Source: a virus. From it: a stretch of DNA of 64,000 nucleotides. The position numbers and the translations under genes are program-made. Of the stretch, positions 25,318 through 58,837 are shown piece by piece (positions within the stretch are counted from its first letter, which is position 1; each line of letters starts with the position of its first letter). The stretch spans positions 46,385 to 110,384 of the IMG/VR virus record IMGVR_UViG_3300035670_000067; one strand, written 5' to 3'. A model generated the notes under the pieces. The model searched no databases. It worked only from the letters and a program-made list of their open reading frames with translations, and was not told the origin of the DNA.

Positions 25318-25478
25318 TAGACATCTTTCTGAATTTCTTGCGCGAGATCGTTGATTGTTACATTAGCTTGATTTGCTATAATGGCGAGCTCCTGCATCGC
25401 CGAAATGTACTTATCTAGCGGCAGTTCAAAGAAACGCACCCGTACAGCATAGAACAGACAAAGGAGTTCTTCAGACAT
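25317..25478 (-). CDS. Unknown 53-aa helical protein
   Basis: ATG at 25478 overlaps the beta-helix gene stop by eight bases (ATGTCTGA). It starts MSEELLCLFYAVRVRFFEL, all helical, followed by INDLAQEIQKDV. A longer open frame upstream lies in the repeat array and is a shadow. No family recognised. Confidence 0.5.
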   Translation of the reverse strand: MSEELLCLFYAVRVRFFELPLDKYISAMQELAIIANQANVTINDLAQEIQKDV

Positions 25479-26100
25479 AGGATTTCTCAGAACTGTTAAT
25501 CTGTTCTTCTCCACCGAAAATGCTTTGACCGCAAACCTGGCTTTCGCCGAAAACATGAACATTCCCAAAGATTCGAGCATATCCGTAGACATGAGCGTTA
25601 TCGTGGATGTGAGCATTTCCAGAAACATTCGCATTTTCAGAGATGCGAGCTTCCTCGTAGACCCAAGCATTACCGAAAATGCGAGCTTCGTTGAAAACCT
25701 GAGCGTAGCCCATGACGCAAGCCTTATCATTGATAAGAGTTGCATCATAGACACGCGCATAACCGAAGACACGAGCGTGACCGAAGACACGGACATAATC
25801 ATAAACGCGAGCGTGACCAAAGATTGCGGCTTGCTCAGAGATGCAAGCAGCATCTTGGACTATGGCATATTCATAGATGCGAGCGTTTCCGTAGATCTGA
25901 GCGTCGTTCATGACCCGAGCTTCTCCATAGACCTGAGCATTTTCGCGAACCCAGCAGTCGCCGTATTGACTAAGATTCCGTTCCGATTCGATCCACCCGC
26001 CGAGATCGCCAGCCTTGACGTCATCGAAATTATGCAACGCACGGATGCGGCGAAGCTTCGGAAAATCTGGGTGGGTTTCGTGAAGGATTTCGTACTTCAT
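25471..26100 (-). CDS. Repeat-rich beta-helix protein, family member 1
   Basis: 209 residues. A conserved N-terminal cap holds MKYEILHETHPDFPKLRRIR and DLGGWIESERNLSQYG. About 23 hexapeptide-like repeats of the form N/H-A-x-V-Y/F-G follow, the pattern of parallel or left-handed beta helices. These repeats are more diverged than in the other copies. The cap is near-identical to five other genes in the window. The function of these phage proteins is not established; a structural or adhesive rod is possible. Third gene in its unit. Confidence 0.7.
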   Translation of the reverse strand: MKYEILHETHPDFPKLRRIRALHNFDDVKAGDLGGWIESERNLSQYGDCWVRENAQVYGEARVMNDAQIYGNARIYEYAIVQDAACISEQAAIFGHARVYDYVRVFGHARVFGYARVYDATLINDKACVMGYAQVFNEARIFGNAWVYEEARISENANVSGNAHIHDNAHVYGYARIFGNVHVFGESQVCGQSIFGGEEQINSSEKSYV

Positions 26101-26273
26101 TTTTGATTACCTTTCTGCTGAAGCTCTTGCTGAAGTTCTCGTTTCATATCTCGAAGACGCTGCATACCGTCTTTGTCATCTTCATGAGAAGCGGCGCAAA
26201 CTCGGTTTTTGGCAATCAAGTAAAACCAAGAATCTCCGCCACCAATCATCTTTGTGATTTTGATGTCTTCCAT
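26097..26273 (-). CDS. Unknown 58-aa protein
   Basis: ATG at 26273 after GAGG; starts MEDIKITKMIGGGDSWFYL and ends in a charged helix rich in Gln/Glu. Its stop overlaps the beta-helix start (ATGA). No family recognised, but the spacing and ribosome site support it. Confidence 0.6.
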   Translation of the reverse strand: MEDIKITKMIGGGDSWFYLIAKNRVCAASHEDDKDGMQRLRDMKRELQQELQQKGNQK

Positions 26274-26281
26274 TGATTACC

Positions 26282-26557
26282 TCACTCGATGATGGTGGTA
26301 ACTTCGGGGATGCTTGCCGTGGTGTGAAGCAGATACCACTTGCCATTGTCAAACATGGCGTACACGGGAAGTTCTTCAACAAGGTTGAACTCGTAGAACA
26401 TGGCGCTCATGGTTGGCTTGATGTCGCTGGTTGCTGCGATGAGTTCTCGAATAGTGGCCGGATCATCCGCTGGCATACAATCCACAATGTCCGGGATAAG
26501 GTAGTGATACTGCTCGTGCTTCTGCAGCTTGTTCTTTGCCCATTTGATTACGTTCAT
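26282..26557 (-). CDS. Unknown 91-aa protein
   Basis: First gene of a five-gene unit. Amphipathic start (VIKWAKNKLQKHEQYHY), then a negatively charged middle and a beta-like end (LPVYAMFDNGKWYLLHT). No family recognised. Transcribed from a near-consensus promoter. Confidence 0.6.
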   Translation of the reverse strand: MNVIKWAKNKLQKHEQYHYLIPDIVDCMPADDPATIRELIAATSDIKPTMSAMFYEFNLVEELPVYAMFDNGKWYLLHTTASIPEVTTIIE

Positions 26558-26603
26558 TGTGAACTCCTTGTTTGTGTTGTGTAGCCTTTGTGCTACTGCC
26601 CTT

Positions 26604-26631
26604 ATTATAGCTGTTCTTGGCCTTCTTGCAA
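26604..26631 (-). promoter_or_regulatory. Promoter of the 91-aa/beta-helix unit
   Basis: TTGCAA, 16 bases, TATAAT. Confidence 0.8.
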
Positions 26632-26818
26632 ACTACCGGATAAAGTCTTTGTTGTCTTGTTTCTACGGAAGAATCAGCCAATTTGTGTATGACCAGAATG
26701 TTCTTGCAATTTACTGATCAGTCTGTAGATCTTTCAACTAAAATGCGTTACGTTTGCTTGCTCTATTGGAGCCAGAGTTTAGTGGCCAATATAATCTAGT
26801 TGCGAGGAATCATTTAGA

Positions 26819-27286
26819 TTAATCCTTTACACTAAGATTTCCGGAGACCTGAGCGTTGCCGCAGACCTGAGCGTTGCCGCAGACCCGAGCGTTTTCGTGG
26901 ACACGAGCGTTGTCGAAGACCCAAGCGTTTCCGTAGACCCAAGCGTTTTCGCAGACATGAGCGTTTCCAGAGACCAGAGCGTTGCCGAAGACCCAAGCGT
27001 TTTCGCAGACACGAGCGTTTTCGCAGACACGAGCGTTGCCGAAGACCCAAGCGTTTCCGTAGACCCAAGCGCTGCCGGAGACCTGAGCGTCGTCGAAGAC
27101 CTGAGCGTTTCCGTAGACCTGAGCGTCTCCGTAGACCCAGCAGTCTCCGTACCGGCTAAGATTCCGTTCCGATTCGATCCAGCCACCGAGGTCGCCGGCC
27201 TTGACGTTACCGAAATCCTGCAACGCACGGATACGGTGAAGCTTCGGGTTGTCCGGGTGGACTTCGGTAGTGATTTCGTACTTCAT
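26819..27286 (-). CDS. Repeat-rich beta-helix protein, family member 2
   Basis: 155 residues: the shared cap (MKYEITTEVHPDNPKLHRI; GDLGGWIESERNLSRYG), then about 18 regular units of the type NARV-C/F/Y-E/G coded by near-identical 18-bp DNA repeats. The regularity at DNA level indicates recent expansion by slippage or recombination. Single-gene cassette with a promoter and the GTCTAGAG paired elements upstream. Confidence 0.75.
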   Translation of the reverse strand: MKYEITTEVHPDNPKLHRIRALQDFGNVKAGDLGGWIESERNLSRYGDCWVYGDAQVYGNAQVFDDAQVSGSAWVYGNAWVFGNARVCENARVCENAWVFGNALVSGNAHVCENAWVYGNAWVFDNARVHENARVCGNAQVCGNAQVSGNLSVKD

Positions 27287-27322
27287 TTCAGTTTACCTTT
27301 CCGGCTTGGTTTGCCTAACCGT

Positions 27323-27350
27323 ATTATAGCCTGTCGGCATTATCCTACAA
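27323..27350 (-). promoter_or_regulatory. Promoter of beta-helix gene 2
   Basis: TTGTAG, 16 bases, TATAAT, with a GGTT-AGGCA-AACC 5' stem-loop. Confidence 0.75.
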
Positions 27351-27394
27351 GCTACTGGAAAATGTAATTTGTTTCTAATCTGTTGGATTGTTGC

Positions 27395-27472
27395 AGACCG
27401 TTCTAGACGCGTTTAGGCTGTTACTGGCGTACCAGTGTACCCGCCGCCCACTGAAGCTGTCTAGAGTGGTCT
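27395..27472. promoter_or_regulatory. Paired inverted GTCTAGAG elements, site A
   Basis: Left arm AGACCGTTCTAGAC (27395-27408) and right arm GTCTAGAGTGGTCT (27459-27472) face each other across exactly 50 bases. The same arrangement occurs at 29291 and 35744. Confidence 0.7.
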
Positions 27473-27523
27473 ATAGCGTGTCTATTGGCATATCATATAG
27501 GGCTAGGCTATTGGCGGCACAGC

Positions 27524-28048
27524 CTACTGTCTTATAATCGTATTATCGCAAATGGTTGAGTCATCCTTAATTCTAGCAGTTCCACAGACTATTGCATTTT
27601 CATGTATTCTAACGTATCCACCGATAATGACTTGTTCGTAGACGTGTGCGTTATCGAAGATCTTAGCATTACCAGAAATCCACGCATCACCGTGTACTAT
27701 GGTATATCCATAGATTTCAGCATATTCTTGAATTAAAGCGCGTTCATAGATTCTTGCGCATCCATGAACAAGTGCATTATCTTGAACTACAGCATTCCCC
27801 CTAACAGAAGCATTTTGGAAGACTCTTGCAAAACTGAGAATCTTTGCATGGTCACTAACCTGAGCTCTGTCGTAGACTTGGGCATTTTCATAAACCCAGC
27901 AACTTCCGATCTGGCTAAGATTATATTCAGACTCGATCCAACCGCCATAATCTCCAGCCTTGACGTGCCCAAAATCCTTCAACGCGATAATGCGTCTAAG
28001 TTTCGTGTTGAGGGGGCAGATTTCCGGAGTTATCTTGTATTTGTCCAT
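27524..28048 (-). CDS. Repeat-rich beta-helix protein, family member 3
   Basis: 174 residues from the ATG at 28048, two bases after the upstream stop. The cap has diverged (MDKYKITPEICPLNTKLRR; GDYGGWIESEYNLSQIG) and the repeats are irregular (YENAQVYDRAQVSDHAKIL). It is likely an older copy that has kept its frame. Last gene of a five-gene unit. Confidence 0.7.
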   Translation of the reverse strand: MDKYKITPEICPLNTKLRRIIALKDFGHVKAGDYGGWIESEYNLSQIGSCWVYENAQVYDRAQVSDHAKILSFARVFQNASVRGNAVVQDNALVHGCARIYERALIQEYAEIYGYTIVHGDAWISGNAKIFDNAHVYEQVIIGGYVRIHENAIVCGTARIKDDSTICDNTIIRQ

Positions 28049-28049
28049 G

Positions 28050-28322
28050 TCACACCAGTGGGTGATATTTACATGTTCTACGTTCTGCTTCAGACGGAGG
28101 TTCGGGTAGATCAACCGAATCTTCCACTGGCATCCAAAATGTCACATCATTAGAAAGAAATCCTTCATTGTTGTAGAATTGATCAAGAACAACTTTCCCA
28201 CGTTTTGTTGTGCAGAACTGTCCCCTGTAGACCATGCCAAATACTTCAAACCAATAGAATACATGCTGGTATTCTTTCGGTTGTTCTTGGTCTATTCTAC
28301 GCCATTTGTTAGACATGTTCAT
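28050..28322 (-). CDS. DUF551-like small protein
   Basis: 90 residues from 28322. It starts MNMSNKWRRIDQEQPKEYQ and ends VTFWMPVEDSVDLPEPPSE, close to the conserved ends of DUF551 (start W-x-x-I with a later P; end VTHWMPLPEPP). Function of the family is unknown; it is widespread in phages and prophages. A second, more diverged relative lies at 63573. Confidence 0.65.
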   Translation of the reverse strand: MNMSNKWRRIDQEQPKEYQHVFYWFEVFGMVYRGQFCTTKRGKVVLDQFYNNEGFLSNDVTFWMPVEDSVDLPEPPSEAERRTCKYHPLV

Positions 28323-28323
28323 G

Positions 28324-28536
28324 TCATCCCTTGAAGTTGATTTTGCGTAGGATTCTCGCAGCGGCGAGCGTATCAATTCTCAACAATGCTGGAACTGATG
28401 ACAATTCATCGAACTCTGCCAACACGCATCCGGTTTGTGATTGAAATTTACATACGAGTTCACACGCTTCAGCGTGTTCTTTCATCTCGTATTCTCGGTT
28501 ACAGAGTTCACAGACATACAGATTCCTTTCGCGCAT
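28324..28536 (-). CDS. Small zinc-finger protein
   Basis: 70 residues: YVCELCNREYEMKEHAEAC is a C2H/C-type single zinc finger, followed by a helical tail. Preceded by AGAGG. Likely nucleic-acid or protein binding; role unknown. Confidence 0.6.
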   Translation of the reverse strand: MRERNLYVCELCNREYEMKEHAEACELVCKFQSQTGCVLAEFDELSSVPALLRIDTLAAARILRKINFKG

Positions 28537-28548
28537 GATGATACCTCT

Positions 28549-28653
28549 TCAGCTTTGTGCGAGTTTATACAATACCAAGATGATGAAAAATATGATAAAG
28601 CAACCTACGCAACCTTCGCCGCCACCGTCATGGTGATAGATATCAAGACGCAT
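28549..28653 (-). CDS. 34-aa membrane micro-protein
   Basis: ATG at 28653 after AAAGGAA. It starts MRLDIYHHDGGGEGCVGC, then a single hydrophobic span (FIIFFIILVLYKL). Its stop is 13 bases before the next start. Very short, so moderate confidence. Confidence 0.5.
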   Translation of the reverse strand: MRLDIYHHDGGGEGCVGCFIIFFIILVLYKLAQS

Positions 28654-28696
28654 TGCTTATTCCTTTGTTACTTAAGGACCGACACTCAGATATCCA

Positions 28697-29179
28697 TTAG
28701 TCAGTGAAAATTCCTTCCAACAAATATTCCTTACTACAGACCCGAGCGTTTCCACAGACCCGAGCGTTACAGAAGACACAAGCGTTTTCGTAGACCCGAG
28801 CGTTTTCGTAGACCCGAGCGTCTCCGTAGACCCAAGCGTCTCCATAGACCCGAGCGTCTCCGTAGACCCGAGCGTCTCCGTAGACCCAAGCGTTTCCGTA
28901 GACCCAAGCGTTTCCCATGACCTGAGCGTTTTTGGAGACCTGAGCGTTTCCCATGACCTGAGCGTTTTTGGAGATCCGAGCCTCGTCGTAGACCTGAGCG
29001 TCTCCGTAGACCTGAGCGTCTCCGTAGACCCAGCAGTCTCCGTACTGGCTAAGATTCCGTTCCGATTTGATCCACCCGCCGAGGTCGCCAGCTTTGACGT
29101 CACCGAAATCCTTCAACGCACGGATACGGTGAAGCTTCGGATTGTCCGGGTGGGTTTCGGGAAGGATTTCGTACTTCAT
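28697..29179 (-). CDS. Repeat-rich beta-helix protein, family member 4
   Basis: 160 residues: cap (MKYEILPETHPDNPKLHRI; GDLGGWIKSERNLSQYG) and about 17 highly regular 18-bp-coded units (NARVYGDARVYG type). Near-identical DNA to member 2 over the cap. First gene of a five-gene unit. Confidence 0.75.
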   Translation of the reverse strand: MKYEILPETHPDNPKLHRIRALKDFGDVKAGDLGGWIKSERNLSQYGDCWVYGDAQVYGDAQVYDEARISKNAQVMGNAQVSKNAQVMGNAWVYGNAWVYGDARVYGDARVYGDAWVYGDARVYENARVYENACVFCNARVCGNARVCSKEYLLEGIFTD

Positions 29180-30157: not shown

Positions 30158-30200
30158 ACAGTTGGATAAAGTGTTTATTGTCAGCGTTTAGATTATCTTG

Positions 30201-30273
30201 AGCCAATGGTCGGATTTGAACCGACGACCGGTTGATTACAAATCAACTGCTCTACCGACTGAGCTACACTGGC
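30201..30273 (-). tRNA. tRNA-Thr (UGU)
   Basis: Full cloverleaf on the minus strand: acceptor GCCAGTG/CATTGGC, D arm GTAGCTCAGTCGG, anticodon loop TTTGTAA, T arm GTTCGAATC. Reads ACA. The CCA end is not encoded. Confidence 0.9.
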
Positions 30274-30292: not shown

Positions 30293-30378
30293 TGGTGTCT
30301 GGAGAGGGACTCGAACCCTCACTTCCTTACGGAAAGCAGATTTTAAGTCTGCTGCGTATGCCATTTCGCCACCCAGAC
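30293..30378 (-). tRNA. tRNA-Leu (UAA)
   Basis: Class II tRNA with a long variable arm (TTTCCGTAAGGAAG), acceptor GTCTGGG/TCCAGAC, anticodon TAA, encoded CCA. Its 5' end directly abuts the CCA of the tmRNA, so the two need cutting from one transcript. Confidence 0.92.
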
Positions 30379-30719
30379 TGGTGGACCTGTCGGGAGTTGA
30401 ACCCGAGTCCTATATAGCTTCTACAATGAAGTTGTTACATGCTTGTTCAATCGTTTATGGTACGATTAACAGAACCATGACTGTCTTTCCAGTCCGTCAT
30501 TCGTATCTCTTCCGACTGTCACCCGGAACCACCGGGATCGTCAGGCTGATTTACTGCTCAGCGAGCGAAGCAGGCTCCGTTAGGCCGCGAGGGCCACGGG
30601 AGCGGGGAAGGACAGAACGGGTTTGGCAGTTCTGTTTTGACCGGAGTTTTGCGAGGCCAACGGTCATCCTCGGCATGAATTCATTATCTCCACTATACAG
30701 TCGAAACCTTTTCAGGCCC
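30379..30719 (-). ncRNA. ssrA: Transfer-messenger RNA (tmRNA)
   Basis: A 341-base RNA with the tRNA-like ends of tmRNA: 5' GGGCCTG pairs with 3' CAGGTCC before an encoded ACCA, and the T arm is GGGTTCAACTCCC. The 5' half has GGTTTCGAC and CATGCCGAGG...TTGGCCTCG, matching pseudoknot 1 of E. coli tmRNA. Aligning to E. coli places the resume codon at GCC (30625-30627). The tag frame then reads AKPVLSFPAPVALAA and TAA (30580-30582). tmRNA frees stalled ribosomes and marks the product for proteases; the ALAA end is the usual protease signal. Confidence 0.92.
30580..30627 (-). CDS. tmRNA tag-peptide reading frame
   Basis: 15 codons, AKPVLSFPAPVALAA, ending LAA-stop as in nearly all tmRNA tags. It is proline-rich and longer than most bacterial tags (usually 8-12). 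The resume site is inferred by alignment to the E. coli layout. Confidence 0.75.
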   Translation of the reverse strand, partial: AKPVLSFPAPVALAA

Positions 30720-30728
30720 ATTGATTGA

Positions 30729-30911
30729 TCACTTACTGATTGTAATCGCTCTCGCGATACAATACGGAATAACGGCCATACCGACCGCTTGCGCTGAAGC
30801 GCCGGCTTGCTGAACAGCGTTGGCTTCACCAGAAATGCTCAGCAAACTGAGCAATCCAATCACCGCAAACACACCGGCGATAGTCCAAACGATTCGGCCA
30901 AACGTCTTCAT
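30729..30911 (-). CDS. 60-aa membrane protein
   Basis: Starts MKTFGRIVWTIAGVFAVIG, a hydrophobic span, then SISGEANAVQQAGASAQAV and a second moderately hydrophobic stretch (GMAVIPYCIARAI). AAAGGAG precedes the ATG. Possibly a holin-like or envelope micro-protein. It is co-transcribed with the downstream tmRNA. Confidence 0.65.
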   Translation of the reverse strand: MKTFGRIVWTIAGVFAVIGLLSLLSISGEANAVQQAGASAQAVGMAVIPYCIARAITISK

Positions 30912-31463: not shown

Positions 31464-31492
31464 ATGGGCTGATTTTATTTGTTTGTGTCTAG

Positions 31493-31566
31493 TAGGCCCG
31501 ACTGGACTTGAACCAGTGACCCGCGGCTTATAAGACCGCTGCTCTAACCAACTGAGCTACGAGCCT
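31493..31566 (-). tRNA. tRNA-Ile (UAU)
   Basis: Acceptor AGGCTCG/CGGGCCT, anticodon stem GCGGT with loop CTTATAA, anticodon TAT, T arm GTTCAAGTC. Reads AUA directly; most bacteria use a lysidine-modified CAU anticodon instead. CCA not encoded. Confidence 0.88.
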
Positions 31567-31573
31567 AGAGAAA

Positions 31574-31759
31574 TCAAGCCTTATCGAAAATGGTGTCCTG
31601 GCATTTCTGACAAATGCCAGAAATCTTATATTCGCGCTTAGACCGTTCGTCACGGAAAGACTTTTCAGTAACATCACAGCCACAGAAAACACACTTATCC
31701 ACAGCGATAAACTTGTTAGCGAAGATCCGAATCGGATTTGTTACTTCGGTCGTTTTCAC
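31574..31759 (-). CDS. 61-aa zinc-ribbon protein (GTG start)
   Basis: GTG at 31759 with AAAGGAG upstream; no suitable ATG, and the reading frame upstream runs into tRNA-Glu. KCVFCGCDV and ICQKCQDTI form a four-Cys zinc site. It sits between tRNA-Glu and tRNA-Ile. Role unknown. Confidence 0.6.
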   Translation of the reverse strand: MKTTEVTNPIRIFANKFIAVDKCVFCGCDVTEKSFRDERSKREYKISGICQKCQDTIFDKA

Positions 31760-31781
31760 ACTAGCTCCTTTCGTTGAGTTT

Positions 31782-31858
31782 TGGTATCCCCAACGGGGTT
31801 CGAACCCGTAGCCTTCAGGATGAAAACCTGATGTGGTAGCCACTTCCACCATGGGGAC
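31782..31858 (-). tRNA. tRNA-Glu (UUC)
   Basis: Acceptor GTCCCCA/TGGGGAT, anticodon loop TTTTCAT, T arm GTTCGAACC, encoded CCA. Confidence 0.9.
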
Positions 31859-31861
31859 ATT

Positions 31862-31938
31862 TGGTGCTCCGGCCGGGATTTGAACCCGGGACTCCGACAT
31901 TAAAAGTGTCGTACTCTAGCCAACTGAGTTACCGGAGC
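31862..31938 (-). tRNA. tRNA-Lys (UUU)
   Basis: Acceptor GCTCCGG/CCGGAGC, anticodon loop CTTTTAA, T arm GTTCAAATC, encoded CCA. Three bases from tRNA-Glu. Confidence 0.92.
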
Positions 31939-39528: not shown

Positions 39529-40239
39529 TTACTTGGACTTACCCTTCCGACTTTCCTTTGATTTGCCGGTAATCGTACCGATTACGATCTTCTTGTTCAC
39601 AATAATTGCACTCCTACAGATATGAGCAAATCCTCCAATGACAGATTTGCCACAAACCTTAGAATCACCACTGACTATGGCGTCATGTTCGATTATCGCA
39701 TTTTCAAGCACACGCGCTCTTCCAGAAATAATGGCACGGTCTCGAATTGTTACATCGCCATAGACATTAGTACATCCATTAACATAAGCGTATCCGCAAA
39801 CATTTGCTCTGTCACCAACGAAAGCTGTATCGTAGATTTTGGCGCGTCCGTACACTCTTGCATCACCGCCGACACTTCCCTGTCCATAGATCATAGCATA
39901 TTCGAAAACACAAGCATTACCAAACACCTGAGCGTCACCAAACACCTGAGCGTCACCGTACACCTGAGCGTCACCGTACACCTGAGCGTCGCCGTAGGCC
40001 AGAGCGTTACCGGAGACCCAAACATCGCCGGAGACCCGAGCGTCATCGAAGACCCAAGCGTTCCCGGAGACCTGAGCGTTCCCGTAGACCCAAGCGTTTC
40101 CGTCTTTGCTAAGGTTTTGTTCCGATTCGATCCACCCACCGAGATCGCCAACTTTGACATCACCGAAACTCTTCACCGCACAGATGCGATGAAACTTTGG
40201 ATTATCCGGGTGGGTTTCGGCAATGATTTCGTACTTCAT
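39529..40239 (-). CDS. Repeat-rich beta-helix protein, family member 6
   Basis: 236 residues, the longest copy: cap (MKYEIIAETHPDNPKFHRI; GDLGGWIESEQNLSKDG), a regular block of 18-bp-coded repeats (AQVYGDAQVYGDAQVFG), then about 15 diverged units with transferase-like hexapeptides (YDTAFVGDRANVCGYAYVN). It lies 10 kb from the other copies and heads its own unit. Confidence 0.72.
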   Translation of the reverse strand: MKYEIIAETHPDNPKFHRICAVKSFGDVKVGDLGGWIESEQNLSKDGNAWVYGNAQVSGNAWVFDDARVSGDVWVSGNALAYGDAQVYGDAQVYGDAQVFGDAQVFGNACVFEYAMIYGQGSVGGDARVYGRAKIYDTAFVGDRANVCGYAYVNGCTNVYGDVTIRDRAIISGRARVLENAIIEHDAIVSGDSKVCGKSVIGGFAHICRSAIIVNKKIVIGTITGKSKESRKGKSK

Positions 40240-54565: not shown

Positions 54566-55279
54566 TTACAGTGACATATCGTAATAACCACTCCTGACAC
54601 CGCGCCTTCCAGATCTCAATTCAGATTGGCATTTGTCTTTCCATTCCTGATAGCCAAGATCGTTTTCGACTGGGTGAGTCACATAATTCTTGGTATCTAC
54701 ATAAACCGGGATGTTCTTAGACATGGCAGCATTCCACAATGACGCTTCGTTGCCGCCATATAATGATCCTGTAGCAAACATGCCAAGCTCAATAAATAAT
54801 GAAGTACGTATGGTTAACCCTGCCCCAGCTACGCCGCGCAAGCAAGTTCTAAACACTTTGTAATGTTCCATTTCTTCAAAGATTGAATGTATTTTTTCGT
54901 AACAGTGACACCTATTGGTAAATTGTTCTGGAACGACAATGGCTTTGTGATTTATTGCGAAATCAAACAGATCTCTCAAAGTTCCCCTATGTACAAGTAT
55001 GTCAGCGTCAGACACACAGGCAACTGATTCAATATCTTCTTTCAGCAAAACTCCCATCATTGTATTAACGCCAACGGCCTTCCCGACATTCTTACCAAAT
55101 GTGAAGACTCTAGTGAAATCACATCTTTCTAACGTTACTCTTGTGTTCAAATCGTTTGGACTATTGTTCCAAATCCAAACCTCATCTACTTCATCCAGCG
55201 AATGTTTCAGCGTTTCAAGCGATTGACGCAATGAATCTGCTTTATAGTAAGTTGCGAACATATAGACTTTTTTCATCAC
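54566..55279 (-). CDS. Family 2 glycosyltransferase
   Basis: 237 residues: YMFATYYKADSLRQSLETL opening with VWIWNNSPND, FTFGKNVGKAVGVNTMMGV, VSDADILVHR as metal site, and LFIELGMFATGSLYGGNEA as the acceptor end. It is coupled to the Dam-type methylase by a four-base overlap. Confidence 0.82.
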   Translation of the reverse strand: MMKKVYMFATYYKADSLRQSLETLKHSLDEVDEVWIWNNSPNDLNTRVTLERCDFTRVFTFGKNVGKAVGVNTMMGVLLKEDIESVACVSDADILVHRGTLRDLFDFAINHKAIVVPEQFTNRCHCYEKIHSIFEEMEHYKVFRTCLRGVAGAGLTIRTSLFIELGMFATGSLYGGNEASLWNAAMSKNIPVYVDTKNYVTHPVENDLGYQEWKDKCQSELRSGRRGVRSGYYDMSL

Positions 55280-55953
55280 CAGTTTCCCTTACAGTACCAA
55301 TCTTTTCTTTCTTCTGAGCCACCAGTCCTGATCCTGGGCACTCGCTTAGTTAACCAACACACCCATTCATTAGAAATGGCTTCTATCGGGCATTGATAAG
55401 TCAATACGTAGGGGACTTCCAGCTTCTTAATCCATTTAGTGAATGTTTTGATGTTTAGATCTTCGACACCATAATTCCCGTCGGTGCCCAAATAAGGCGG
55501 ATCAATAAACAGAAAATCTCCGTCTTTCTGTTTATACGTCCTGTAAGACCCGTGTATAAATTTCCAATTATGAATTTTACGCATAGCGATTTTTGTATCT
55601 TCTACAGGCAACCTATGCTGCGGATATATCATCCAAGATGATAACTGACCAACATAAATTCCAGCCAAATTCACTCGAAGATAATCGCGCGCTTCTTCTC
55701 TTATACTAAGCGTCTTGACACTGATCTTATCTCCTTCGTAAACACGCAAACCATCTAAATCGGGCATAGTCCTCAACCATCTCAACATAGATATCAGGCT
55801 TTTGTTCAGATCTATACACAAAGCTGAATAATCGTACTGTAGTGAAAACGCGCACGAACCACAAAACGGCTCAACTATCCTTTTAGTTCCCTTGGGGAAT
55901 TGAATGCTTGGAAATTTTGCTTTATTCCCAGAATATTTGAATAGCCTATACAT
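55276..55953 (-). CDS. D12-class (Dam-type) adenine DNA methyltransferase
   Basis: 225 residues: FKYSGNKAKFPS opening, RIVEPFCGSCAFSL (SAM-binding F-x-G-x-x-x), and FLFIDPPYLGTD (catalytic D-P-P-Y). The order is that of Dam and restriction-related N6-adenine methylases. The target is not visible from the sequence, but GATC is a common target of this class and GATC is strongly concentrated in the accessory region. Overlaps the next gene by eight bases. Confidence 0.88.
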   Translation of the reverse strand: MYRLFKYSGNKAKFPSIQFPKGTKRIVEPFCGSCAFSLQYDYSALCIDLNKSLISMLRWLRTMPDLDGLRVYEGDKISVKTLSIREEARDYLRVNLAGIYVGQLSSWMIYPQHRLPVEDTKIAMRKIHNWKFIHGSYRTYKQKDGDFLFIDPPYLGTDGNYGVEDLNIKTFTKWIKKLEVPYVLTYQCPIEAISNEWVCWLTKRVPRIRTGGSEERKDWYCKGNW

Positions 55954-57094
55954 TCAGCATCTCCACAGAAACCCTTTCATACGAAGCGTTGTCTTTCAGC
56001 GCATTGTGTCGTATCCAATAATAGGCAGCCAACTTCATATCTGTATTGCGCAGATTTCTGAATACATTCTTATATTCGCTGTAGAATTGTATTGGATCCA
56101 TTTTCTTGGCCGCAGCATATATCGCCATATAATACAGATCTTCACCCATCACATTTCTAGAAAAAGAAGTGCGCAATCTGTTAAGATTACAATCTAAATC
56201 TTCTTCCCATAGAGATTGCACATACTTTACGAACCGCTTTGCTTCGCTGATATTGTAATAACAGTCATCGCCAATAAATGGTTCATATGTATTTACCGGA
56301 ATGCAATAATGCGGCACATTCGCCATCAAAATCTTTTTGAGCCTATCCTTCATATTTTCATAAACATGAAGAGAACCGGCGAAATGATAATAGCGACCGA
56401 CACCCACCCCCAAGATGCGCGACAGCATACCCTGAATGAAAGAAAATTCAAACACATTGATTTGTGAAAATCCAAACAGTAAATCGTTCGATCTCATAGT
56501 AACGAAGCAATCAAGCTTGCCGTTATTGATCTTATATTGAATGTAACCAGTGCAAGGATAATCCAAACTATCTCCAGCACGACAATCCTTTGCCGGATCC
56601 CAAATTGACATCACCGCCCGCTTACTGGTCGGATCCGCTTTCAGCGTTTCACAAACATATTGTATTTGATCAACGCTTTTCAAATTCGTAACTGCGTAAT
56701 TTTCTACTGCCCTATTTTCAATGGCGCTAGCCTTATAGAATCTGCTGTATTCAACATCGCTTAACCCATAGGAACGACGCAGCCTTGGCCCATAGCCCGC
56801 CCGCCATTGCACCCCGTCATCAGCATATTGCGGCGCTCTAGGTAAGAAGTGCTTTAGAACTGAAACATCTCTATCTCCACTAAGAACCCATATAGTTTCA
56901 AACAAAGAAGCAAATGGATTTCCATGTCTTTCCACCACAAGCGGAATGCGATATGGCCCAACGATTTGAATCATCATTGGTGAAACTTCAAAGATATAAT
57001 TGGCTGATGCTCCAACTCTTTTTACCTCGACCCTTTCACCATGAACGTCTATCATCTCCACTGCCCACAAAAACGCTTGTGTCATGTCAATCAT
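55946..57094 (-). CDS. Thymidylate-synthase-family enzyme, candidate dUMP hydroxymethylase
   Basis: 382 residues, long for ThyA. Catalytic Cys in LDYPCTGYIQYKI; phosphate/nucleotide region MRSNDLLFGFSQINVFEFS; HFAGSLHVYEN near the end. In ordinary ThyA the middle motif is R-S-x-D-x-x-L-G-L-P-F-N. The form here, with F-S and an extra residue before I-N, is closer to the diverged phage branch that includes dUMP and dCMP hydroxymethylases. The two genes upstream fit an hmdU pathway. Activity (methyl or hydroxymethyl) must be tested. Confidence 0.75.
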   Translation of the reverse strand: MIDMTQAFLWAVEMIDVHGERVEVKRVGASANYIFEVSPMMIQIVGPYRIPLVVERHGNPFASLFETIWVLSGDRDVSVLKHFLPRAPQYADDGVQWRAGYGPRLRRSYGLSDVEYSRFYKASAIENRAVENYAVTNLKSVDQIQYVCETLKADPTSKRAVMSIWDPAKDCRAGDSLDYPCTGYIQYKINNGKLDCFVTMRSNDLLFGFSQINVFEFSFIQGMLSRILGVGVGRYYHFAGSLHVYENMKDRLKKILMANVPHYCIPVNTYEPFIGDDCYYNISEAKRFVKYVQSLWEEDLDCNLNRLRTSFSRNVMGEDLYYMAIYAAAKKMDPIQFYSEYKNVFRNLRNTDMKLAAYYWIRHNALKDNASYERVSVEMLNV

Positions 57095-57807
57095 TATTGA
57101 TTCCTTTCATGTCTGTTAGCTACATCTGCCCAATCGTTATTTTCAGTTACCGAACCTGCATATTCAATAACCGGCGGCTTTTTGAGATCTTCGAATTTAT
57201 ATGTACTGGCCAGATTTTCTATGAAGTTCTTAATCTTAAGCTGCCAATCGGTTCTCATTTTACTATTGAAAAAGTAAACATCAGCATGTGATCTTATTAT
57301 CGGATAAAACGATTCGGACTTATGCCGCGACGCTTCGTTTGTACTTCTTGGATCATCCGTATCTATGAAAACCAAAGTAAATCCATTATTCTTTACATAT
57401 TCTAATTCTGCAGGACGCCTTACATCCTTAATGCAGAACCCAAGCCTAACCGCTCCAAGTTCTTGCATTGTTTCGCGCAAACGAATGAACTCTTCTTGCA
57501 CTGAATCAACAAACACTCCGGGATAGATTTCTGGCAACATATCAAATGCCTGCCACACCATGCGCGGAGTATATTGCACCTTCGTTTCTGGATTAGTGTA
57601 AACTATCCTCGTCTCTTTCTCTGAACTTTCGTAATCAAACTGCATAAATCCAAATATGGATTTAACTATTTTCTTGAGCTGATCGCTAAAGCTAGCCACA
57701 GTAAAGCAATATTCCATTTCAAGCGTGTCTGTGACAGTGTCCTTACCTGAATATTTTGGACCACTGAATGCCAATTTCGTTACAGATATAACATTTTCTT
57801 CACCCAT
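57094..57807 (-). CDS. Deoxynucleoside monophosphate kinase (T4 gp1-like)
   Basis: 238 residues from ATG 57807 (eight-base ATGGGTGA overlap). Walker A is FSGPKYSGKDTVTD, followed by VASFSDQLKKIVKSIFGF and RMVWQAFDMLPEIYP, the conserved series of phage dNMP kinases. It would raise hmdUMP or other dNMPs to diphosphates for DNA synthesis. Confidence 0.82.
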   Translation of the reverse strand: MGEENVISVTKLAFSGPKYSGKDTVTDTLEMEYCFTVASFSDQLKKIVKSIFGFMQFDYESSEKETRIVYTNPETKVQYTPRMVWQAFDMLPEIYPGVFVDSVQEEFIRLRETMQELGAVRLGFCIKDVRRPAELEYVKNNGFTLVFIDTDDPRSTNEASRHKSESFYPIIRSHADVYFFNSKMRTDWQLKIKNFIENLASTYKFEDLKKPPVIEYAGSVTENNDWADVANRHERNQ

Positions 57808-58837
57808 TGTGCACACCTAGGATCTTTGCGACATGCAGCATGTTCGCAGGTTTGTTGTATTTATTGAATGTCCACTGAGCGGGTTTCCAGCTAACATCTC
57901 TATTCGCGTCTATGCTTCTAGCCCATCCGTCTCTGGACATATATCTATTACGAGGCCGCCCGCGATCCTCATAAGCTTTCATGTATTTGCTAAACTCACA
58001 AAGACAATTTTCCAAGGACATTACAGTAAGATAAGGATACGGCTGATCCTCAAATGTTTTCAGAAAATCTACATCGTAAAGTCTAGAATTCTTTAACTGA
58101 TTATTACGCAACCAATAATTCAACTCTTCGTATCCATTATCTTCTATGGTCTTTTCGGTAAACAACTCATGCAGTCCGCGTTTAGCCCCCGGTCCATCAA
58201 TAACAAAGTCATCTTCTCCAAACTTAGTACGATCTGAATAGCTTAAATCTACTGCAATCTGATATCCTAAGAACGGCCCTATCCCCTGAATGCTACGCAG
58301 ATAATAGTAGCATTCTTCCATTGATTTGTCGAACGCGTCACGTAAACAGCCAGACTTTTCATCATCATTGAGCTGATCGGTTATTTGCCCAAGCAACAAA
58401 GAAATTCTTGTAATCTTATCCATACCAAATCCGAACATACTGTACCCGCTGACAGTAAACGCATTGGTGAAAACATTTTCATTAGCTGATAAATTCAATA
58501 GTCTTAATCGCAACCCTTCTTGATCATATTTTCTGTAATCTGGCATATGGCCATGATACAGAAATGTCTCTATCTTGTTGAACAATCTGTATAAGACATG
58601 ATTAAAGAAGAACGAAGCATCATCAACATATTCTTGCTTCTGCAACCATTCTGTCACAAATCTAGTGCCGCGGTCTAATTCGCGGAAGATATTGGTGAAT
58701 TTGAAATCTGCTAATATTGGATCTTTAGTCCAAGGTGGTGGAAGGTTTTGTAGTTCTTTTCTTTTGTATATTTCGTGTCGTTCTGCTATGAATTTCCAAA
58801 ACAAACCCATATTTTCTTTATAATAGAATACTGACAT
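57800..58837 (-). CDS. 5-hmdU DNA kinase-like protein (HMUDK/thymine hypermodification family)
   Basis: 345 residues. FWKFIAERHEIYKRKELQN, PPPWTKDPILADFKFTNIF, RELDRGTRFV and later SIQGIGPFLGYQIAVDLSY and DGPGAKRGLHELF follow the helical domain family of phage 5-hydroxymethyl-dU DNA kinases and alpha-glutamyl/putrescinyl thymine pyrophosphorylases (families studied in ViI, M6, SP10 and phi W-14). These enzymes activate hmdU in DNA for replacement by amines or sugars. No P-loop is seen here, so it may work with a partner. Confidence 0.75.
   Translation of the reverse strand: MSVFYYKENMGLFWKFIAERHEIYKRKELQNLPPPWTKDPILADFKFTNIFRELDRGTRFVTEWLQKQEYVDDASFFFNHVLYRLFNKIETFLYHGHMPDYRKYDQEGLRLRLLNLSANENVFTNAFTVSGYSMFGFGMDKITRISLLLGQITDQLNDDEKSGCLRDAFDKSMEECYYYLRSIQGIGPFLGYQIAVDLSYSDRTKFGEDDFVIDGPGAKRGLHELFTEKTIEDNGYEELNYWLRNNQLKNSRLYDVDFLKTFEDQPYPYLTVMSLENCLCEFSKYMKAYEDRGRPRNRYMSRDGWARSIDANRDVSWKPAQWTFNKYNKPANMLHVAKILGVHNG

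Follow-up and report, generated by a model that had tools for sequence, protein, structure and literature searches.

A one-piece, tag-bearing tmRNA gene abutting tRNA-Leu in an uncultured tailed phage

Stalled ribosomes are freed by tmRNA, an RNA that also marks unfinished proteins for destruction. A published survey found it in 402 of 18,146 phage genomes (PMC9004378), the tRNA arrays of mycobacteriophages include it (PMC5966550), and huge phages have been reported that encode SmpB as well as tmRNA (PMC7162821). Like the RNA described here, the phage tmRNAs of Streptomyces phage Gilson, Mycobacterium phages Kumao, Bxz1 and Wildcat, and Bacillus phage G have a tag frame (PMC4131195).

The tmRNA locus examined here lies in a 110,384-bp IMG/VR virus record of an uncultured tailed phage, possibly incomplete, in which portal, terminase and capsid matches place the locus within the phage genome. 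Positions are those of the window, the whole 64,000-nucleotide stretch of this record that was analysed. The features of the locus, with the support for each in brackets, are as follows.

30200..30273, minus strand: tRNA-Thr(UGU), without encoded CCA (ARAGORN, Rfam, sequence)
30293..30378, minus strand: tRNA-Leu(UAA), encoded CCA, zero bases after the tmRNA CCA (ARAGORN, Rfam 56.3 bits, sequence)
30379..30719, minus strand: one-piece tmRNA gene (ssrA), 341 nt, encoded CCA (RF00023, ARAGORN, G3:U70 acceptor)
30447..30478 (tmRNA 242-273), minus strand: last pseudoknot, at the PK4 position, AUGGU/ACCAU plus UUAAUCGU/ACGAUUGA (second-ranked H-type pseudoknot)
30580..30627 (tmRNA 93-140), minus strand: tag frame from resume codon GCC to stop TAA, AKPVLSFPAPVALAA (sequence, fold)
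30638..30672 (tmRNA 48-82), minus strand: PK1, CGAGG/CCUCG plus UGACCG/CGGUCA (top-scoring H-type pseudoknot)
30729..30911, minus strand: ORF of 60 aa with a hydrophobic stretch at the N-terminus, lying upstream of the tmRNA with 9 nt between its end and the tmRNA 5' end (ORF list, translation)
31492..31938, minus strand: tRNA-Ile(UAU), tRNA-Glu(UUC) and tRNA-Lys(UUU), upstream of the tmRNA (ARAGORN, Rfam)

The tmRNA gene was called in the window by both ARAGORN and Rfam, the latter as a full-length match to RF00023 (model positions 1-374 of 374) scoring 123.9 bits, where the cutoff is 47, with an E-value of 6e-48; no tmRNA was called in 30 Markov-random 64-kb sequences of the same dinucleotide composition. 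The acceptor stem GGGCCUG/CAGGUCC carries the alanine-type G3:U70 pair and is followed by ACCA. An earlier note on this DNA had read a tmRNA with tRNA-like ends and an encoded CCA from the letters alone and proposed a covariance search, and both calls and the high score bear that reading out. The interval that it gave, 30293-30719, takes in tRNA-Leu plus the tmRNA, the tmRNA itself occupying 30379-30719. The two tRNA halves follow in the standard order, 5' then 3', so this is not the two-piece, permuted form. As regards a possible ssrA attachment-site remnant, the gene is complete and located inside a tRNA cluster. The middle of the RNA fits RF00023 poorly (average posterior 0.60), and when H-type pseudoknots were ranked by an exhaustive search of the tmRNA, PK1 and PK4 were clear; a plausible PK2 (CUGCU/AGCAG) can be read by eye, and PK3 is ambiguous. 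The likeness of the first pseudoknot to that of E. coli, put forward in the same note, stands as a match but is not specific, the general Rfam consensus being matched as well. We conclude that the tmRNA gene is real and apparently complete.

The tag frame runs GCC AAA CCC ... GCC TAA and translates as AKPVLSFPAPVALAA followed by a stop, with a hydrophobic C-terminus. Of the three frames only that of the GCC codon is plausible, as had been proposed; the other two give no tag-like end. The resume region reads AACU|GCC, which puts an A at -4 relative to the resume codon, the main determinant of the frame in E. coli (PMC2481249), and AACU also precedes the resume codon in one comparator contig (L066). 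An A stands at position -3 too, so some misframing is possible. The tag is 69% GC, compared with 43% for the window, and the end of its frame folds into a GC-rich hairpin, which may explain the GC-rich, proline-containing codons.

Whether the tag is unusual is another matter. Tags in the tmRNA calls that we gathered span 8 to 33 residues, both extremes being single ARAGORN calls and the longest from a bacterial MAG; that of Mycobacterium phage Kumao has 31, and that of B. subtilis has 15 counting the charged alanine (PMC7430163, PMC4342826). Tags at least this long are common in phages and bacteria, and the description of the tag as unusual, long and proline-rich survives only in its three prolines among 15 residues, its length and C-terminus being unexceptional. 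Aligned with the B. subtilis tag, AKPVLSFPAPVALAA is identical at 8 of 14 positions, and none of 2000 shuffles of its first eleven residues scored as well, although the B. subtilis reference was picked after the tag had been seen, so that the likeness is a lead on origin and no proof. The tag may also resemble cyanobacterial tags, whose sequences did not turn up in our literature search.

tRNA genes flank the tmRNA on both sides. The claim that tRNA-Leu begins at the base after the tmRNA CCA proved exact, the spacer being zero bases by ARAGORN, Rfam and the sequence itself; a tRNA pair in Gordonia phage Sixama offers a precedent for zero spacing, and in L060 a tRNA-Thr follows the tmRNA after 8 nt. 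On the other side, the short distance to the end of the 60-aa ORF suggests a shared transcript, so this ORF is possibly co-transcribed with the tmRNA.

No family match to SmpB, SspB or ClpP was obtained in the 110-kb record, itself possibly incomplete, so these partners would have to be the host's. The gene is most probably a conventional trans-translation RNA, an intact phage ssrA that would use host AlaRS, SmpB and Clp proteases. It would probably be transcribed together with its neighbours and then excised by host tRNA-processing enzymes; since tRNA-Leu abuts the tmRNA, a single RNase P cut at the tRNA-Leu 5' end could yield that end and, directly, the tmRNA 3' CCA end. Host AlaRS would charge the tmRNA with alanine, and the charged RNA, bound to host SmpB, would enter ribosomes stalled on broken mRNAs, where the stalled product would gain alanine plus AKPVLSFPAPVALAA, the VALAA end of which would direct it to Clp-type proteases of the host. 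The phage, which also brings tRNAs of its own, would probably gain by keeping ribosomes in circulation through the infection. What the sequence shows is the gene, its structure, the tag frame and the arrangement; every step from expression and processing through charging and tagging to degradation, as well as the benefit, is inferred, and so are the roles suggested earlier, ribosome rescue during host shut-off or redirected proteolysis.

Redirected proteolysis would mean that the phage tag, having no host adaptor-binding part, sends tagged proteins to a different protease or has them degraded at a different rate, in favour of the phage. The tag begins AKPVLSF, unlike the ANDENY-type tags, SspB was not found in the phage record, and the literature discusses the differing tags of extra, phage-derived tmRNAs (PMC9569102). 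However, VALAA is the conventional protease signal, B. subtilis Clp proteases recognising the ALAA motif (PMC7430163), and any contrast with the host's own tag is hypothetical; we consider this reading unlikely. It is very improbable that the RNA acts as a decoy, tying up SmpB and so blocking trans-translation in the host: a TLD-only form of phage RNA does inhibit tmRNA, and trans-translation in E. coli is blocked by a short RNA that resembles tmRNA, of the type known from mycobacteriophage DS6A (PMC4131195, PMC11915505), but the present RNA has a messenger part, pseudoknots, a tag frame and a stop codon, none of which a decoy needs. Although ssrA often serves as an integration site, and the ssrA copies on viral contigs in our pattern scan are mostly of the E. 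coli type, which we read as attachment-site captures or prophage flanks, there is very little chance that this gene is a functionless passenger recently captured from a host, given that it is structurally complete, lies inside a phage tRNA cluster and has a tag absent from every genome in the genome-contig scan, where the AKPVLSFPAPVALAA protein pattern had no match.

The reading that we prefer, conventional trans-translation with host partners, also draws on 14 comparators. These were phages whose polymerase, terminase or portal is related, tmRNA T-arm matches, and viral contigs found by tmRNA pattern. A tmRNA scored above the cutoff in 10 of the 14, which is not a frequency, as the comparators were chosen partly for carrying tmRNA; SmpB was detected in none of them. 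Phage matches in blastn of the tmRNA were short and mostly confined to the T arm and 3' end. Close relatives of the phage were found neither by terminase or thymidylate synthase scans of viral contigs nor by specific tmRNA patterns. Three routes to a host were tried and set aside. The tag pattern, as noted, had no match in the genome-contig scan. One Spirochaetes MAG matched the tmRNA 5'-end pattern, and no host is drawn from it because its ARAGORN tag is unlike AKPVLSFPAPVALAA; among phage proteins, the best matches of polymerase, terminase, portal and kinase reach about 32% identity or less, and their hosts conflict.

The record also encodes a UvsX-like recombinase, a helicase and a DnaE-type polymerase, together with at least seven tRNA genes; U34 is present in all seven tRNAs of the window, which fit the phage's favoured codons, AUA and AGA included. 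Two ORFs share the polymerase, which lies outside the window (record G000, L004:11264-15955). The N part closes with an extension of about 95 residues that starts with Cys, and the C part opens with about 43 residues ending HN before SHA, an arrangement that looks like a candidate split intein; a 324-aa ORF with a weak DUF559 match lies between the two parts. At window 54566-58837, members of the thymidylate synthase and 5-hmdU DNA kinase families, a dNMP kinase-like protein, a D12 DNA methyltransferase and a glycosyltransferase occur together, which suggests hypermodified thymine in the phage DNA. The longer thymidylate synthase match is at window 55946-57094, and the ORF at L004:16401-17375 matches that profile at positions 60-133 only. 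A group of similar proteins is encoded at window 25471-29179 and 39529-40239, three members matching the YdcK beta-solenoid repeat, and the viral contig locus L110 has many stretches similar to this group.

The locus is a clear but ordinary case, many large phages carrying tmRNA, and by itself it leaves established knowledge unchanged. Its contribution is a clean phage tmRNA whose tag was unmatched in the genome-contig scan, from a phage for which no close relatives were found, and one more data point on why phages have tmRNA without SmpB.

Among described systems, the tmRNA of Methylophilales phage Melnitz is likewise phage-encoded and has been proposed to aid host take-over, but it is permuted, in two pieces, and has a glutamine riboswitch (PMC9004378), whereas the tmRNA here is in one piece and no riboswitch reached the Rfam threshold in the window. 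The B. subtilis tag, (A)GKTNSFNQNVALAA, 15 residues with the charged alanine, shares K, SF and VALAA with AKPVLSFPAPVALAA; its ssrA is bacterial, whereas the present one-piece ssrA is phage-encoded, in a record where SmpB was not detected. The first-pseudoknot sequence here is like that of the E. coli-type copy in L007, and the likeness to the B. subtilis tag, noticed post hoc, does not fix the host. Kumao and Gilson are like the present record in that SmpB was not found; the tag of Kumao, with its 31 residues, differs from AKPVLSFPAPVALAA, as does that of Gilson, ANSNFALAA, and in Gilson, as here, the tmRNA lies beside tRNA genes.
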